DNA from: Vicingus serpentipes
Lineage (GTDB): Bacteria > Bacteroidota > Bacteroidia > Flavobacteriales_E > Vicingaceae
NCBI RefSeq assembly: GCF_007993035.1
Contig: NZ_VOOS01000001.1
Coordinates: 372,001 to 436,000 of the forward strand
Reading direction: 5' to 3'
Length of the DNA stretch: 64,000 nt
The translations under genes were made by a program, and so were the position numbers. Below are positions 7,254 through 55,085 of this stretch, piece after piece; the stretch's first letter is position 1, and every line of letters begins with the position of its first letter. The notes beneath the pieces are model-generated. The model saw only the letters and a list, made by a program, of their open reading frames with translations. It was not told the DNA's origin and ran no database searches.

Positions 7254-9743
7254 ATGAGTACCGAAACTAAATTTGTAGATGTTATTATTCCTCTATCTAT
7301 ACCCTATTTGTATACCTATAGGGTTCCTAGAGAGTTAACCAATGAAGTTATTGTTGGACAACGAGTTGTTGTACAATTTGGTAGAGGAAGAAAACTCTAT
7401 TCGGCACTTATAAAAAAAATACACAACCAACCACCCAAAGCTTATGAAGCAAAATACATCGACTCTATTTTAGATGATCAACCATTAGTAAACCAAAAAC
7501 AATTAAAACATTGGGATTGGATAGCCGATTATTACCTAAGCAACTTAGGCGAAGTTTACAGTGCTGCTTTACCTGGAGCTCTAAAATTAGCTAGTGAAAC
7601 TAAAATTGTTTTAAATGCTGATTTTGCAGGTGATTATCTTGAAGATTTAACCGATAAGGAATATCAAGTATACGAAGCTTTGAGTATTAGAAATGTATTA
7701 AGCTTAAGCGAAATAGCCGAATTACTTTTTATAAAATATACCCATAAAGTTGTAAAAGGACTTATTGATAAAAAAGTAGTCATTGTTGAGGAGGAATTAA
7801 AGCGAAAATTTAAACCAAAAGTTGTACAATATGTTCGGTTAACCGAAAACGCCAACAATGAAAAAAATCTTGAAAAACTATTTGAAGAATTAAGCAAAGC
7901 ACCTAAGCAATTAGAGTTGTTAATGAAGTTTATACAACTTAGCGAACGCTATCAAGAACAACCTAAAGAGGTTAACAAAATAGTGCTACAAAAGGCTGTT
8001 AATGCAACTTCATCTGTTATTACTCAATTGGTTAAAAAGAATATTTTTGAAGTTTACGATGTTGTTGCAAATCGATTAGATGATTACGGAAATGAAATAA
8101 TTGGTTTTAATCAACTAAACGAAGATCAAGAAAAAGCGACTGTCGAAATCAAAAATCACTTTAAAGAAAAAGATGTTGTTCTTTTACATGGAGTTACTGG
8201 CTCAGGTAAAACAGAAATCTATATCAAATTAATTCAAGAAGCTTTAGCCGAAGGAAACCAAGTTTTATATCTATTACCAGAAATCGCATTAACTACACAG
8301 TTAATTATTAGATTGCAAAAAGTATTTGGAGACGTAATTGGAGTTTACCATTCAAAATTTAACGAAAACGAACGTGTTGAAGTTTGGAATCAGGTATTAA
8401 ATTTCGAGCAAACAAAATCAAGTAAATACCAAGTTGTAATGGGAGCTCGTTCGGCTATGTTTTTACCATTTAGCAATTTAGGGTTGGTAATTGTTGATGA
8501 AGAACATGAGAACACTTTTAAACAATACGACCCTGCTCCAAGATACAATGCAAGAGATTCATCTATAGTTTTAGCAAACATTCATAAAGCAAAAATATTA
8601 ATGGGCTCTGCTACCCCATCAATAGAAAACTATTGGAATGCGCAACAAGGTAAATTTGGATTGGTAGAATTGAAAAAACGACATGGTGGAGTTCAAATGC
8701 CCGAAATTTTATGTGCAGATATAAAAGAAGCTACTCGAAAAAAGAAAATGAAATCTCACTTTTCTCCACTACTTATGGAGCAAATGGAAGAAGCCTTTAA
8801 GAATAAAGAACAAGTTATTTTATTTCAAAATAGAAGAGGCTATGCTCCTTTTATGATTTGTGAAGAATGTGGTCATGTACCTGAATGTAATAATTGTGAT
8901 GTTTCTTTAACCTATCATAAGTTTTCTAATCAATTACGTTGTCATTATTGCGGACAACATAAAAAAATGCCAAATGCTTGTGGAGCATGCGGAAGCACGA
9001 GAGTGACGTTAAAAGGATTTGGAACTGAACAAATTGAGGAAGAGTTAGCCATTTATTTTCCTAAAATAAAAGTAGCTCGAATGGATGCCGATTCTACTAG
9101 AAGTAAGAATGCTTATCACCAATTAATAACTGATTTTGAAGAAGGTAATATTGATGTATTAGTTGGAACACAAATGGTAACTAAAGGTTTAGATTTTAAC
9201 AACGTAACCTTGGTTGGGATATTAAATGCTGATACCATGCTAAACTTCCCTGATTTTAGAGCATTTGAACGTGCATACCAAATGATGAGTCAAGTTAGTG
9301 GACGTGCAGGTAGAAAAGTAAAAAGAGGAAAAGTAATTATACAGACTTACGACCCTTATCACAGAATTATTCGACAAGTAATTGAACATGATTACTTGGG
9401 GATGTATAACAATGAATTGATAGAACGTAAACAATTTAACTACCCTCCTTTTCATCGCTTAATTCACTTTAGTTTAAAGCATAGAGATAAAGATATGTTG
9501 AATGCTGGAGCATCTGAATTTACATATCAACTGCAACAAAAATTTGGTAGTCGTGTTTTAGGTCCTGAGTTCCCTGTTATTAGTCGTATTAAAAATTACT
9601 ACCACAAAAACGTGTTACTGAAAATAGAACGTGAAGGTTCTATTTCTTCTACACGAAAAATAATTACAGAAATCAAAAACAACTTCGAATCTTTTAGCGA
9701 ATATAAATCGGTAAAAATTACTATTGATGTTGATCCGATGTAA
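7254..9743 (+). CDS. priA: Primosomal protein N' (replication restart helicase PriA)
   Basis: The 829-residue protein carries the PriA order: an N-terminal 3'-DNA-binding domain (about 1-110), a winged-helix region, a helicase core with Walker A GVTGSGKTEIY, the Walker B box DEEH, GSATPS and the motif VGTQMVTKGLDFNNV, and an eight-cysteine zinc insert (CEEC, PEC, NNC, RCHYC, ACGAC) within the second helicase half. PriA loads the replicative helicase at stalled forks. It starts 41 bases after pfkA with a weak TTG/TATTTTTA promoter-like pair at 7222-7248. Confidence 0.96.
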   Translation: MSTETKFVDVIIPLSIPYLYTYRVPRELTNEVIVGQRVVVQFGRGRKLYSALIKKIHNQPPKAYEAKYIDSILDDQPLVNQKQLKHWDWIADYYLSNLGEVYSAALPGALKLASETKIVLNADFAGDYLEDLTDKEYQVYEALSIRNVLSLSEIAELLFIKYTHKVVKGLIDKKVVIVEEELKRKFKPKVVQYVRLTENANNEKNLEKLFEELSKAPKQLELLMKFIQLSERYQEQPKEVNKIVLQKAVNATSSVITQLVKKNIFEVYDVVANRLDDYGNEIIGFNQLNEDQEKATVEIKNHFKEKDVVLLHGVTGSGKTEIYIKLIQEALAEGNQVLYLLPEIALTTQLIIRLQKVFGDVIGVYHSKFNENERVEVWNQVLNFEQTKSSKYQVVMGARSAMFLPFSNLGLVIVDEEHENTFKQYDPAPRYNARDSSIVLANIHKAKILMGSATPSIENYWNAQQGKFGLVELKKRHGGVQMPEILCADIKEATRKKKMKSHFSPLLMEQMEEAFKNKEQVILFQNRRGYAPFMICEECGHVPECNNCDVSLTYHKFSNQLRCHYCGQHKKMPNACGACGSTRVTLKGFGTEQIEEELAIYFPKIKVARMDADSTRSKNAYHQLITDFEEGNIDVLVGTQMVTKGLDFNNVTLVGILNADTMLNFPDFRAFERAYQMMSQVSGRAGRKVKRGKVIIQTYDPYHRIIRQVIEHDYLGMYNNELIERKQFNYPPFHRLIHFSLKHRDKDMLNAGASEFTYQLQQKFGSRVLGPEFPVISRIKNYYHKNVLLKIEREGSISSTRKIITEIKNNFESFSEYKSVKITIDVDPM

Positions 9744-9808
9744 TGAAACTAAAATTGTTAAAGTTTAAGTATTTTAGCTTTCCATTCGAATTGATTGCAT
9801 TTATTAAA

Positions 9809-9970
9809 ATGAAAAAGCTATTTCTTATTTTTTTATTATTTCTAACGTTTAACGTTATTACTCAATTCGGAGATAAATCGTTTTATCTTATCGATTCTAT
9901 CAACCTAAAGGAAATCAATAAATATAATTTACTATTGACTTTATCCTTAAAAAACGCTAACTTCGTCTAA
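9809..9970 (+). pseudogene. Truncated secreted ORF, N-terminal remnant
   Basis: The frame opens at 9743, overlapping the priA stop, but the ATG at 9809 gives a signal-peptide-like start (MKKLFLIFLLFLTFNV) followed by about 35 residues ending SLKNANFV. The stop codon lies inside the left boundary repeat of the kinase module (9959-9999), so the gene appears cut off there. The stretch after the signal peptide (YLIDSINLKEINKYN) reminds me of the start of flavobacterial TPR-containing sensor proteins, but that is recall, not a search. A genuine short secreted peptide is the alternative. Confidence 0.45.
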
Positions 9971-9999
9971 ATCAATGTGAAAAACATTAAAACGTTTCC
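9959..9999. repeat. Left boundary repeat of the kinase module
   Basis: AACTTCGTCTAA at 9959-9970 and AAACATTAAAACGTTTCC at 9982-9999 flank a small hairpin (AATGT/ACATT). The same two blocks, with T for C in the first, recur in the same order at 54110-54153 upstream of the lipoprotein module. The spacing differs by a few bases while the hairpin is kept. Confidence 0.7.
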
Positions 10000-10021
10000 T
10001 AAATAGGCATTATAGTTTATA

Positions 10022-11023
10022 ATGAGTAGGTCAAAAAACATAAGGAATGAGCTTGTAATAGAAGGCACTAGAATTGGTATATGGGATTGGAATGTACAAA
10101 CTGGTGAGACTTATTTTAATGAGCGTTGGGCTAACATCATCGGCTATACTATTAGTGAATTGAAACCTTTGAGCATTGAAACTTGGTTGAAATTTGCACA
10201 TCCTGAAGATCTAGAAAAATCAAACCTGCTTATTCAAGAGCACTTTGAAGGTAAAACTGAATATTACGACTTTCAATCAAGAATGCGTCACAAAGATGGG
10301 CATTGGGTTTGGGTCCATGATCGCGGTAAGGTTTTCGAGTGGGACGAAGATGGCAACCCTATAAGAATGTGTGGCTCCCACATTGACATAACAGTGGAAA
10401 AGCTACAAGAAGTAAATCTGAAAAGAGCTCTAGACGAGAGAGATATTCTTTTAAAAGAAGTTCATCATCGAGTAAAAAACAACCTGCAACTTTTGTTAAG
10501 TTTATCAAGACTAAAAGATCAAGATGGAAAAATAAGCACTTCCGAAATTGAAGATTCTATAAGTTCAATAGCTACAGCTTATGAAGCGATATATAAATCA
10601 GATAGATTAGACAAAATCTCCATAAAAAAATATTTCCACCAAATATTTCTAACCATTTTAAATGTTGGTGATATTGACTATAAGATAATTTGTGATGAAT
10701 TAGAAAACAAAATTGACTTTCTAATACCTCTTGGCTTAATTGTAACTGAATTGATTAACAATTCCTTGAAGCATGCTTTTGGTAATGTTAAATTCAAAAA
10801 TATTCAAATGGAAATTCAAGAAGAAAGCAATGAGTTAGTTATTGAATACTCAGACAATGGACTTGGTTATTCTGAAGAATCTCTGAAGTCAATAAAACAA
10901 TCTAGTTCATTTGGATTATCTATAATAGAAGGTTTGGTAGATCAATTAAACGGAAACATTCAGTTCTTTAATAATAATGGAGCTCGGGCCAAAATAAAAA
11001 TAACTAACCCTAACAAAACCTAA
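10022..11023 (+). CDS. PAS-domain sensor histidine kinase (HisKA_2 type)
   Basis: A 333-residue soluble kinase without membrane segment. Residues 10-130 form a PAS_3 domain (GIWDWN, FNERWANIIGYT, DGHWVWVHDRG). The HisKA_2 phospho-acceptor box is LLKEVHHRVKNNLQLLLSL with His at 148/149, and the C-terminal HATPase carries the N-box VTELINNSLKHAF, the G1 box YSDNGLGY and a final GLSIIEGLV. It should autophosphorylate in the cytoplasm in response to a ligand or cofactor on PAS; no haem or flavin site can be assigned. No response regulator is adjacent, so it is an orphan. It is enclosed by boundary repeats also found at 54110-55085, which suggests acquisition as a single-gene module. Confidence 0.88.
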   Translation: MSRSKNIRNELVIEGTRIGIWDWNVQTGETYFNERWANIIGYTISELKPLSIETWLKFAHPEDLEKSNLLIQEHFEGKTEYYDFQSRMRHKDGHWVWVHDRGKVFEWDEDGNPIRMCGSHIDITVEKLQEVNLKRALDERDILLKEVHHRVKNNLQLLLSLSRLKDQDGKISTSEIEDSISSIATAYEAIYKSDRLDKISIKKYFHQIFLTILNVGDIDYKIICDELENKIDFLIPLGLIVTELINNSLKHAFGNVKFKNIQMEIQEESNELVIEYSDNGLGYSEESLKSIKQSSSFGLSIIEGLVDQLNGNIQFFNNNGARAKIKITNPNKT

Positions 11024-11043
11024 ACTGCATTAAAACGCAGTTT
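11022..11043 (+). terminator. Hairpin after the kinase, weak terminator
   Basis: Seven-base stem AAACTGC/GCAGTTT with an eight-base loop starts inside the stop codon of the kinase. There is no following T-run, so it may be part of the module end structure rather than a terminator. Confidence 0.4.
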
Positions 11044-11046
11044 GAC

Positions 11047-11063
11047 CAAAACGTTAAACGAAA
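11047..11063. repeat. Right boundary repeat of the kinase module
   Basis: CAAAACGTTAAACGAAA is identical over 17 bases to 55069-55085, the right end of the lipoprotein module. GTTAAAC at 11053-11059 fits the integron attC R' consensus GTTRRRY and lies 14 bases from the stop codon of the convergent receptor gene. Confidence 0.7.
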
Positions 11064-52913: not shown

Positions 52914-54089
52914 ATGGAAAAAGAAATTGCTTTTATTGAAATTAACAAAACAAAATCGTTACCAGAAATCGCTTTAACATTAAGCAAACATCCCGAATTA
53001 GATAAAAATTTTATCATTAACCAAATAAACGGATTACAAAAAGCGCAAAAAAAACTTCCTGAGTTTTACCAAAATAACAACATAATTTACCCGGCAACAA
53101 TTAGTATTGAGCAATGTTCAAGCGAACAAACTGCCACTTTTAAAACTAAAATCATACGTCATTCAGGGCTTACCCCTGAATCTCATTTAATTGACCTAAC
53201 CGGTGGTTTTGGCATAGATACTTACTACTTTTCTAAACAATTTAAAGAGGTAACTTATCTTGAACCAAATGTTGAATTATTTAATGTGGTTCAACAAAAC
53301 TTTAAAACTTTAGGTGCAATAAACATTAATTTTAAAAATACTACTACCGAAGATTTTCTAAACAACAACACACAACATTTCGATATTGCCTATATTGACC
53401 CTAGCCGAAGAAATGAAAGTGAAAAAGTATTTATGCTCTCGGATTGTATTCCTAATATAATTGATTTACAAGAGGAAATTTTAAAAATTGCTGATAAAAT
53501 TTTAATTAAAACCTCACCAATTTTAGACATAAAACAATCTATAAAAGAATTAGAAAATGTTAGTGAAATATGGGTTGTATCGTTAAACAACGAATGCAAA
53601 GAAGTATTATATTTAGTTGATAAAGAAACGCCATCAGAACCTAATATTAACACTATTAATATTGGAAAAATAAATCAAGTATTTTCTTTTAATTATACCA
53701 ATGAAGAAAATTGTAGTACCCACTTTTCTGAACCTTTAAATTACCTTTACGAACCAAACACTTCCATTTTAAAAGCTGGAGCTTTTAAAAGTATTGCCCA
53801 AAAATACCAACTCAAAAAAATAGCTCAACATACACATCTTTATACTTCAGAAAATTTAGTGGGAAATTTCCCTGGTAGATGCTTTAAAATAAATACCGTT
53901 TTGCCCTACCAACCTAAAGCTTTTAAAAAATTAGGTATAAAAAAAGCCAATATTACTTGTCGAAATTTTATAGATTCTGTAGCTCAAATTAAAAAGAAAC
54001 TAAACTGTACTGATGGCGGTAACAATTATGTTTTTGCGGCTACAGATTTAAATGACAATCCTATTATTATAGTTACTAACAAAGCTTGA
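52914..54089 (+). CDS. SAM-dependent methyltransferase with THUMP-like domain
   Basis: The 391-residue protein has a class I methyltransferase domain with motif I LIDLTGGFGIDTYYFSK (about 98-114) and AYIDPSRRNESEKVF in the motif IV position. The C-terminal region (about 290-391, LGIKKANITCRNF) matches the THUMP-like domain of RNA-modifying enzymes. An RNA substrate is probable but unidentified. It is the last gene before the inserted-looking module at 54110. Confidence 0.85.
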   Translation: MEKEIAFIEINKTKSLPEIALTLSKHPELDKNFIINQINGLQKAQKKLPEFYQNNNIIYPATISIEQCSSEQTATFKTKIIRHSGLTPESHLIDLTGGFGIDTYYFSKQFKEVTYLEPNVELFNVVQQNFKTLGAININFKNTTTEDFLNNNTQHFDIAYIDPSRRNESEKVFMLSDCIPNIIDLQEEILKIADKILIKTSPILDIKQSIKELENVSEIWVVSLNNECKEVLYLVDKETPSEPNINTINIGKINQVFSFNYTNEENCSTHFSEPLNYLYEPNTSILKAGAFKSIAQKYQLKKIAQHTHLYTSENLVGNFPGRCFKINTVLPYQPKAFKKLGIKKANITCRNFIDSVAQIKKKLNCTDGGNNYVFAATDLNDNPIIIVTNKA

Positions 54090-54109
54090 CTTTATCCCTA
54101 AAATTCTCG

Positions 54110-54153
54110 AACTTCGTTTAACAAAATGTTTTAAGAAACATTAAAACGTTTCC
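54110..54153. repeat. Left boundary repeat of the lipoprotein module
   Basis: AACTTCGTTTAAC (54110-54122) and AAACATTAAAACGTTTCC (54136-54153) match the left boundary of the kinase module. The interior forms the hairpin AATGTTT-TAAG-AAACATT. GTTTAAC (54116-54122) fits the attC R'' consensus RYYYAAC and is the exact complement of GTTAAAC at 55075-55081. Confidence 0.7.
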
Positions 54154-54162
54154 AAGAACAAC

Positions 54163-54171
54163 GTTGGCAAC
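54163..54171. repeat. Left arm of module inverted repeat
   Basis: GTTGGCAAC here is the reverse complement of GTTGCCAAC at 54884-54892, across the lipoprotein gene. Both are followed by AAG after a further A or two. Confidence 0.55.
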
Positions 54172-54192
54172 AAGCTAAAAAAACAAAAACTT

Positions 54193-54855
54193 ATGAAGTA
54201 TAAATTTCATCGTAAAACAAAATTTAAATCACATTATTTAATAGTCGTTTCAACCATTTTTATGGTTCTATTATTCTTTTCCTGTAAGGAAGAATCCAAC
54301 TCGGAAAAAAACACAGAAAGTGATTTAATGATGAAAATAAATGCTGTTCAGGAACAAGTTATGGCACAAGGAAATATGACGGAAGAAGAGGAACAGGCTT
54401 TATTAAGTTTATGTAGCATAGTTTCGCATGATGACGGTTTAGCAACTTATACTAGTGACAATAGTATGATATTAAAAGATGTAGAACTTGCCCCAGTGTA
54501 TAATGGTTGTGAAGATCTCTCAATAGAAGAAACAAGAGAATGTTTTAATGAAAAAGTATCGACATTTATTAAGCGAGAGTTTAACTTGAGTGTATCTAAA
54601 GATTTAAATCTTTCAGAGCCAAAACAGGTAGAAGCATTTTTTATAATCAACGAAAAAGGAAATTTAACTGGTATGAAAGTGAGGGATTCAGAAGTAACTG
54701 TTCAGGCAGAAATCTTAAGAGTGCTTAGAAAAACACCTGTGATGAAACCTGCTACCCAAAATGGGGAAAGTGTTTCTGTATTATGTTCAATAGTAATAAC
54801 ATATGGAAATAATATAGAAGTTGATGTTGTTTATATTCCTGAAAGACCCGATTAA
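54193..54855 (+). CDS. Lipoprotein with TonB-C-like domain (accessory)
   Basis: The 220-residue precursor has a lipoprotein signal (LIVVSTIFMVLLFFSC; lipobox Cys at about 31). The last 80 residues resemble the C-terminal domain of TonB/energy-transducer-like proteins: VEAFFIINEKGNLTGMKV, then ILRVLRKTPVMKPATQNGESV and a final beta strand. In Bacteroidota this domain occurs on many small secreted proteins of unknown role. Codon use looks like its neighbours. It sits inside module boundary repeats shared with the kinase at 10022, which suggests it came as a unit. Confidence 0.7.
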   Translation: MKYKFHRKTKFKSHYLIVVSTIFMVLLFFSCKEESNSEKNTESDLMMKINAVQEQVMAQGNMTEEEEQALLSLCSIVSHDDGLATYTSDNSMILKDVELAPVYNGCEDLSIEETRECFNEKVSTFIKREFNLSVSKDLNLSEPKQVEAFFIINEKGNLTGMKVRDSEVTVQAEILRVLRKTPVMKPATQNGESVSVLCSIVITYGNNIEVDVVYIPERPD

Positions 54856-55085
54856 TCTTTAATAATACTAACTAAAAAAGCCAGTTGCCAACAAGGTGTA
54901 TAGCCAATAGGGCAATTAGCGATAAATTGAAGTCCTGTTCTTTGAGCAGGCAACGCCAAAACAAAGTTTTGACGTTTAACAAAAAGAAAATCAAAAGTAA
55001 AAACGTTTGTTTTGGCTAAGTGGTAATCCGAAAGTGAAGTGTTTCGAACCTGCCCTACTGTCCATACACAAAACGTTAAACGAAA
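54856..55085. repeat. Structured non-coding tail of the lipoprotein module
   Basis: This 230-base gap has no ORF but many short hairpins: TTGCC...GGCAA around the core CAACAAGGTGTATA (54889-54902), CCTG...CAGG, CAAAAC-AAA-GTTTTG, AAAAC-GTTT-GTTTT and CGAAA...TTTCG. GTTTAAC (54974-54980) and GTTAAAC (55075-55081) bound a 108-base stretch of attC-like length. The last 17 bases equal 11047-11063. It ends at the stop codon of the convergent gene. Confidence 0.6.

Follow-up and report, generated by a model that had tools for sequence, protein, structure and literature searches.

Probable integron-type cassettes in dispersed hairpin sites of Vicingus serpentipes and a resident integrase that may act in trans

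Introduction

In classical integrons the cut falls at G|TT (the bar marks the cut), the cassettes carry folded attC ends with R''/R' pairing, an attI site lies beside the integrase gene and is followed by the cassettes, and a promoter stands ahead of the captured genes. We analysed a stretch of 64,000 nucleotides (the window) from Vicingus serpentipes (Flavobacteriales), in which two single-gene regions, one with a histidine-kinase gene and the other, 44 kb away, with a lipoprotein gene, share their edges. Both are very probably integron-type cassettes inserted at G|TT in conserved hairpin sites with a likely promoter, and a resident integrase encoded elsewhere in the genome most likely acts on them in trans. 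We call these acceptor sites of ~87 bp pads; an inserted gene cassette splits the pad at G|TT into a left and a right half.

The system has in common with the classical integron the G|TT cut, folded attC-like ends with R''/R' pairing, an attI-like site beside the integrase gene with cassettes behind it, and a promoter-like element ahead of the captured genes. It differs in its integrase, from which the IntI-specific region is missing and which carries an additional domain at the N-terminus, in its attI, a perfect-type palindrome behind the integrase gene and in line with it, and in that most cassettes studied are single and lie at many dispersed conserved sites with a likely promoter. Like CALINs (at least two clustered attC sites without an integrase; PMC9024848) and single attC sites, it has attC cassettes apart from the integrase gene. 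Unlike them, it forms no clusters: pads whose insert could be closed mostly hold one cassette each, which places them outside that definition, and the cassette sits in a conserved acceptor also found empty. At attG sites, too, cassettes enter the chromosome outside an array, but these sites are described as departing from classical att sites in both sequence and structure (PMC12901181), whereas the pads are a conserved structured family at fixed loci.

The integrase also resembles Xer-like and IS91-linked tyrosine recombinases. Among solved structures its catalytic part is closest to XerA. In a plasmid collection it shares 53% identity with a truncated tpnF (over residues 148-381) and 36.5% with a recombinase beside an IS91-family transposase. 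The difference from these Xer-like and IS91-linked recombinases lies behind the gene, where there are here an attI-like palindrome and attC-type cassettes, although the tpnF beside tet(X3) also has a palindrome. Neither the G|TT cut nor the attC pairing points to pdif modules (XerC/XerD), which are bounded by 28-bp sites, each with two 11-bp Xer arms; dif sites were not searched for.

A survey of complete genomes found in Bacteroidetes at first only In0 and later one complete integron, in Salinibacter (PMC9024848), and Bacteroidota or the Bacteroidetes/Chlorobi group are named among integron carriers (PMC8618304, PMC9668308, PMC2426708). We found no description of dispersed promoter-bearing acceptor sites, or of such a Flavobacteriales integron, in the literature searched, which is weak evidence of novelty as subscription papers were mostly outside it.

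Results

The shared edges are halves of one site

The window covers C1:372001-436000 of the V. serpentipes genome (G000; 2.92 Mb, 34 contigs). Genomes are labelled in the manner of G000 and loci in that of L001; L068 is the first site of the window (kinase) and L069 the second (lipoprotein). The edges pointed out in an earlier note on this DNA are present around both genes as exact matches. The right edge CAAAACGTTAAACGAAA lies at 11047-11063 and 55069-55085 (with up to three mismatches, 3 matches in the window against 0.89 expected) and the left edge AACATTAAAACGTTTCC at 9983-9999 and 54137-54153. The shared left edge extends further than that note had it, starting at TTGACTTTATC (9935 and 54086). 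Further copies of both edges occur in the whole genome: a third exact copy of the right edge, taken at 16 bases, and for the left edge three more exact copies and three with one mismatch. Copies with two or three mismatches are mostly background, since reversed-pattern controls gave similar counts. We therefore used a covariance model, R1, and took as true edge copies the places where left and right halves pair up.

At three loci (L062, L063, L066) the halves adjoin directly with nothing between them, as in TTGACTTTATCATAAAAATACTCGAACTTCGTTTAACAACAGTTTTAAGAAACATTGAAACGTTTCCAAGAACAGCG|TTAAACGAAA, so that the left and right edges are one site. Elsewhere in the genome 0.7-1.7 kb of other DNA separates the two parts of this sequence at the bar. 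The suggestion that the two regions are mobile cassette-like units thus stands as far as a single-gene mobile unit of the cassette kind is concerned. The shared ends are not part of what moves; they are fixed acceptor halves, also found empty and at matching places in other species.

The pad is a structured element with a promoter-like motif

Ten aligned sites were tested for a structure made of an outer arm, an inner stem and a conserved apical loop. The outer arm is the pair of reverse complements noticed earlier, TTCGTTTAAC/GTTAAACGAA. In this alignment 88.8% of the cells pair and six pairs are changed on both sides, a number reached in none of 500 shuffles. In a larger alignment of 40 empty sites (L172 excluded as a reverse-strand duplicate; L189, L231 and L238 not included), which leans towards the structure because the covariance model made it, 96 cells are doubly changed, against 36.4 (sd 4.1) after shuffling (0/500 as high) and at most 29 when the partners are slid. 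The outer arms fit R''/R' (GTTTAAC, GTTAAAC) under the rule given by the earlier note (RYYYAAC, GTTRRRY). The insertion point G|TT is equivalent in nearly all sites read; L068 is degenerate, and a few sites have A|TT.

A promoter-like element, TTG-N17..23-TAnnTT[T/C]G, is found in 59 of 97 sites (55 with spacing 20), compared with 12 of 1940 random 50-mers. The Bacteroidetes promoter consensus is TTTG/TANNTTTG, refined to TAHHTTTG (PMC6847099). The element runs into the hairpin, its -7 part overlapping the R'' arm, so folding and transcription might compete at the pad. The same element would drive the captured cassettes. In three filled sites (L067, L094 and L095, at G000:C2:321553, C2:384786 and C3:385621) the apical hairpin is replaced by a sequence with CCTGAGCTTG.. 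GAAGG, which seems to us to resemble a REP-type (repetitive extragenic palindromic) repeat.

The inserts resemble cassettes

We compared the insert ends at ten filled sites (eight from G000, one from G015, one from G002). Nine of the inserts have, close to their right end, an R'' that is perfectly complementary to a G followed by the opening bases of the insert, over 8-9 bases in seven and over 6 bases in two (L094, L105). Bases 4-7 of R' at the cassette ends often deviate from RRRY. Across all 53 filled sites, 29 have a match of at least 5 bases near the right end and 23 one of at least 7, although the right ends of L064 and L095 were wrongly chosen in this comparison and are truly those of the ten-insert one. 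When the starts were permuted among these 29, the matches at 7 bases averaged 0.44 and never exceeded 4. Chain tracing at pads often stopped early or overshot and serves only as support.

The resemblance to integron attC ends raised for the window holds: in both of its regions an attC-like site that belongs to the cassette lies immediately within the right edge, found by script for the lipoprotein cassette and by eye for the kinase cassette. The hairpin of the latter has the loop of the pads. The script found no R'' at the end of the kinase cassette, and an R1 match overlapping that end (10978-11058; 24.3 bits, E 0.041) is no better than probable chance. The first pad has lost its last ~10 nt before the cut, and the kinase cassette, with its degenerate left boundary, may be trapped.

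Of 31 inserts cut out, 30 have an open reading frame (ORF) of at least 50 aa, and the largest is co-directional with the pad promoter in 28 of these 30. Comparing cassette proteins with each other gave three weak matches and no others. Family searches covered the two cassette genes of the window and the platform cassette; the other cassettes presumably include a permease, restriction-modification proteins and regulators, as far as we recognise them.

Pads are kept at matching loci and their contents differ

The V. serpentipes genome has 13 pads (11 from the covariance model, two from BLAST with an empty copy only); four read as empty (L062, L063, L066, L165) and nine as filled. One of the empty pads lies at C6:164551-164637. 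For G040 the distinct sites number 23, of which 12 read as empty and 11 as filled. The R1 search of the 46 genomes of the family, which also made up the order-level search, returned 125 rows in 15 genomes, at least five being reverse-strand readings of the palindrome. Of about 122 distinct sites we examined 97, and manual reading of each classed 44 as empty and 53 as filled. A handful of weak sites, L189 (E 0.005) among them, may be attC-like rather than pads. Among the 46 genomes pads are restricted to two genera, that of the window (G000, G002) and one other (13 of 14 genomes). R1 matched nothing in G001 and G003, which belong to the window's genus, and in a class-wide sample it matched one of 198 genomes, the window's own.

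Empty pads tend to lie behind genes. Thirty of the 44 abut at least one gene 3' end; with a minus-strand gene on the right, 22 of 29 overlap it or reach to within 20 nt of its stop, and with a plus-strand gene on the left, 17 of 25 begin within 26 nt of its stop.

Comparison of the neighbouring proteins showed that pads occupy matching positions across species and that one position can be empty in one species yet occupied in another. The flanks match on both sides for L061 (G000, filled) and L201 (G046, empty); for L166 (G000, filled), L195 (G049, empty), L238 (G039, empty) and L202 (G046, filled); for L171 (G040, empty) and L240 (G039, filled); for L167 (G015, empty) and L204 (G045, filled); and for L223 (G047, filled) and L227 (G051, empty). 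The second site of the window matches L203 in G046, which holds a 172-aa protein with no similarity to the lipoprotein. The earlier note had held that edges conserved in all relatives together with the same neighbours would count against mobility. Edges and neighbours are indeed kept in several species, but they enclose a different gene or no gene at all, a result in favour of gene gain at a fixed site.

The first site of the window adjoins a gene whose product we take, from its sequence, to be PriA. In G040 and G047 pads with other cassettes lie 3 and 2 nt behind the stop codon of this PriA-like gene, in G048 the pad is degenerate, and in G000 it starts 191 nt behind the stop. The contents next to the gene are a histidine kinase, a two-gene insert and a 151-aa protein. 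Thirty PriA-like loci were compared, ten of them uninformative (contig end or other ORF picked); the remaining 20 comprise three pads, one degenerate pad and 16 loci with no pad within 330 nt.

Pads also resemble each other within genomes. In 14 matching pairs (for example L063 in G000 and L102 in G015) the best own-genome paralog of the first member is closer than the ortholog in 13, with one tie, and that of the second member in 12. This suggests that pad copies are homogenised or re-seeded within genomes, with an upward bias from taking the best of many.

A candidate integrase with an attI-like palindrome

The earlier note saw no integrase. A candidate lies outside the window. One of six Phage_integrase matches in the genome is a 382-aa tyrosine recombinase at C1:541189-542337, ~114 kb away, and directly behind its gene stand an attI-like palindrome, GCGAATAAACGTACCGGTACGTTTATTCGGTTG|TTAGGCGC, and a cassette, made of a gene with an Rce1-like domain followed by R'' GCGCCTAAC. 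Homologs (E <= 1e-40; 32-83% identical) occur in 32 of the 46 family genomes. Several have the same kind of palindrome behind them, differing in sequence; for 11 aligned palindromes RNAalifold predicted 14 pairs, 11 with compensatory changes. Chains of cassettes start from the palindrome, with seven in Aquimarina mytili KCTC 23302 (L301), six in Xanthomarina sp. F2636L (L309), three in an uncultured Cellulophaga (L307) and one or two at eight other loci; these were traced without a shuffled control, and the second link of L303 looks like chance. No chain was traced at the rest of the 47 integrase loci, in many cases owing to a contig end or failed tracing. In this tracing R'' was matched to the start of its own cassette, which is its pairing partner in arrays; matching it to the following R' finds almost nothing.

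The likely catalytic residues (R237, K262, H326, R329, H352 and Y361) are invariant in 12 homologs. The protein scores 228.3 with NCBIfam NF040815, 'site-specific tyrosine recombinase/integron integrase' (cut-off 220), a name that is not diagnostic because the XerD of the same genome scores 230.2. With TIGR02249 (integron integrase) it reaches 194.7, below the cut-off of 265 and above XerD (147.7) and XerC (113.8). The best solved relatives are XerA enzymes, a fold search matched XerA- and IntI-like catalytic parts, and partial matches in the plasmid collection include IntI2 (30.8% identical) and IntI1 (26.5%). A 17-row tree with long branches, from which five intended rows were left out, does not place the integrase relative to IntI. 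The structure prediction has a mean pLDDT (predicted local distance difference test) of 61 and is usable only over about residues 8-75. These residues, modelled with fair confidence, fall in the extra N-terminal domain (residues 1-105; L097 4190-4500), which had no Pfam match in the 12 homologs scanned.

Pads are more numerous where the integrase is present. In the two pad genera, ten genomes have it at 50% identity or more (pads 13, 9, 23, 1, 6, 20, 14, 1, 5, 18) and eight do not (0, 1, 0, 0, 3, 4, 4, 1), a difference with Mann-Whitney p = 0.005, uncorrected for relatedness and draft completeness. Counts are raw rows except in G000 and G040, and the 5 of G049 includes one reverse-strand duplicate.

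Relatives on plasmids show comparable layouts. On a plasmid of Chryseobacterium sp. SNU WT5 (NZ_CP041688.1, L325; 3983-8300) a 39% identical integrase is followed by cassettes that chain by R''/start complementarity, and one stretch (TTGGGAAAAATCGCCC...) occurs twice. On plasmid pHH1107 (FJ012881.1, L324; 3043-5064) the truncated relative tpnF precedes GTGGATATATACGCCATTTGGCGTATAGCCACTTG|TTATGTGCC, a sequence in keeping with the attI layout of this integrase class, and tet(X3) comes next. An R''-like GGCTACTAAC lies behind tet(X3); by eye, no more than 7 of its 10 bases are complementary to the cassette start, an argument against an intact cassette. The gene, called xerD or tpnF, is described in the arrangement ISCR2-xerD-tet(X3)-res-ISCR2, with mobilisation credited to ISCR2 (PMC8635130, PMC7530245).

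Discussion

In our reading this is a divergent Flavobacteriales integron which, in addition, serves dispersed sites, most of them with a single cassette; it is apparently a genome-wide version of integron systems. The integrase would act in trans, binding the folded strand of the cassette attC and of the pad, presumably as single strands, and joining them by recombination. A promoterless gene would thereby land behind the promoter of the pad and be expressed from it. The home site of the same enzyme would be the palindromic attI directly behind its gene, where arrays would build up in other Flavobacteriales.

Several observations weigh against this account. The -7 element of the pads is usually one base off the published consensus, with TTCG for TTTG. 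No R'' match was found in 24 of the 53 filled sites, four of which run off the contig within 250 nt, the others being unexplained. The additional domain around patch III that is defining for IntI (PMC9668308) is not present: the parts matched to VchIntIA are separated by 23 residues, against 65 in VchIntIA. Beyond the two pad genera, an integrase with 52-83% identity occurs without pads in at least ten genomes of the family (G038: 83%). Conversely, five genomes (G002, G015, G045, G046, G050) have one to four pads each, some of them filled, and no close integrase, and the attI palindrome and the pads are unlike in sequence. The last two facts would fit pads that accept cassettes inserted by another recombinase, either the host XerC/XerD or an integrase arriving transiently with incoming DNA, while the resident enzyme serves its own attI only. 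We think this unlikely, because all six genomes with at least nine pad rows have the integrase and because pad inserts and platform cassettes end alike, with R'' complementary to the cassette start; the drafts without the integrase are incomplete, or may have lost it.

Alternatively, the pads could be in the first place structured elements of gene 3' ends (terminator-like repeats), and cassettes would enter them as secondary targets of the attG kind. Their frequent position at gene 3' ends would then be expected, and classical integron cassettes have been reported to insert into bacterial genomes at attG sites (PMC12901181). Yet more than half of the pads examined are filled, the cut is at an equivalent G|TT in nearly all those read, the arms fit GTTTAAC/GTTAAAC, the promoter-like element is conserved, and the pads do not show the divergence reported for attG sites, all of which makes this a quite improbable origin. 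We give hardly any credence to a family of transposons or miniature inverted-repeat transposable elements, with the shared edges as inverted ends and cargo genes inside. The ends do hold 10-bp reverse complements and the enclosed genes are unrelated, but empty pads retain both halves, for which reason a transposon with the shared edges as its ends was rejected; the inserts also have boundaries of their own, and sites lie at matching loci in other species.

A broader proposal stands, in our estimate, at even chances. It holds that a second integron lineage, built on a Xer-like integrase and not on IntI, exists across Bacteroidota, and that in two genera of one family it is distributed over up to about two dozen promoter-bearing pads at fixed loci, each with no cassette or usually one exchangeable cassette, served in trans; tet(X3), which lies behind a relic of this kind of integrase and attI, may have come out of Bacteroidota as one of these cassettes. 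Integrons are familiar as a single platform carrying a single array. Here a platform is accompanied by genome-wide single-gene slots with a likely promoter, kept across species while their contents are exchanged. This makes it possible to test how a bacterium can take up and express foreign genes while leaving the neighbouring genes undisturbed, and to ask whether more than one lineage of recombinases gave rise to the capture of folded-DNA cassettes. The layout of integrase and palindrome upstream of tet(X3) provides a concrete hypothesis for the first mobilisation of that gene.

Features of the two sites in the window

Table 1. Coordinates of the two pads, their cassettes and the adjoining gene (positions in the window).
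Feature	Position	Strand	Details
Pad 1, left half	9935..10003	+	TTG 9935-9937, 20 nt, TAACTTCG 9958-9965; R''-like arm, apical hairpin; R1 47.5 bits
Histidine-kinase cassette, about 1050 bp	10004..11053	+	left boundary approximate (pad 1 degenerate)
Gene of kinase cassette, 333 aa	10022..11023	+	PAS_3 + HisKA_2 + HATPase_c sensor kinase (family search)
attC-like end of kinase cassette	11008..11053	+	R'' CCCTAAC 11008-11014; hairpin AAACTGC-ATTAAAAC-GCAGTTT; cut after 11053; by eye
Pad 1, right half	11054..11063	+	TTAAACGAAA
Pad 2, left half	54086..54163	+	TTGACTTT; R'' arm TTCGTTTAAC 54113-54122; apical hairpin; G before cut at 54163; R1 73.9 bits, E 2.7e-11
Lipoprotein-gene cassette, 912 bp	54164..55075	+	starts TTGGCAAC
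Gene of cassette 2, 220 aa	54193..54855	+	"lipoprotein" is the label of the earlier note; matches no family in Pfam or NCBIfam
attC-like end of cassette 2, 192 nt	54884..55075	+	R'' GTTGCCAAC complementary to cassette start G+TTGGCAAC
Pad 2, right half	55076..55085	+	TTAAACGAAA
Gene adjoining pad 1 (PriA-like)	7254..9743	+	same neighbour in G040, G047

Between the PriA-like gene and the first pad lies a short reading frame (9744-9934), possibly a gene remnant. It is not present at the equivalent place in G040 and G047; in the window it ends with NLLLTLSLKNANFV and a stop codon, and runs into the pad.
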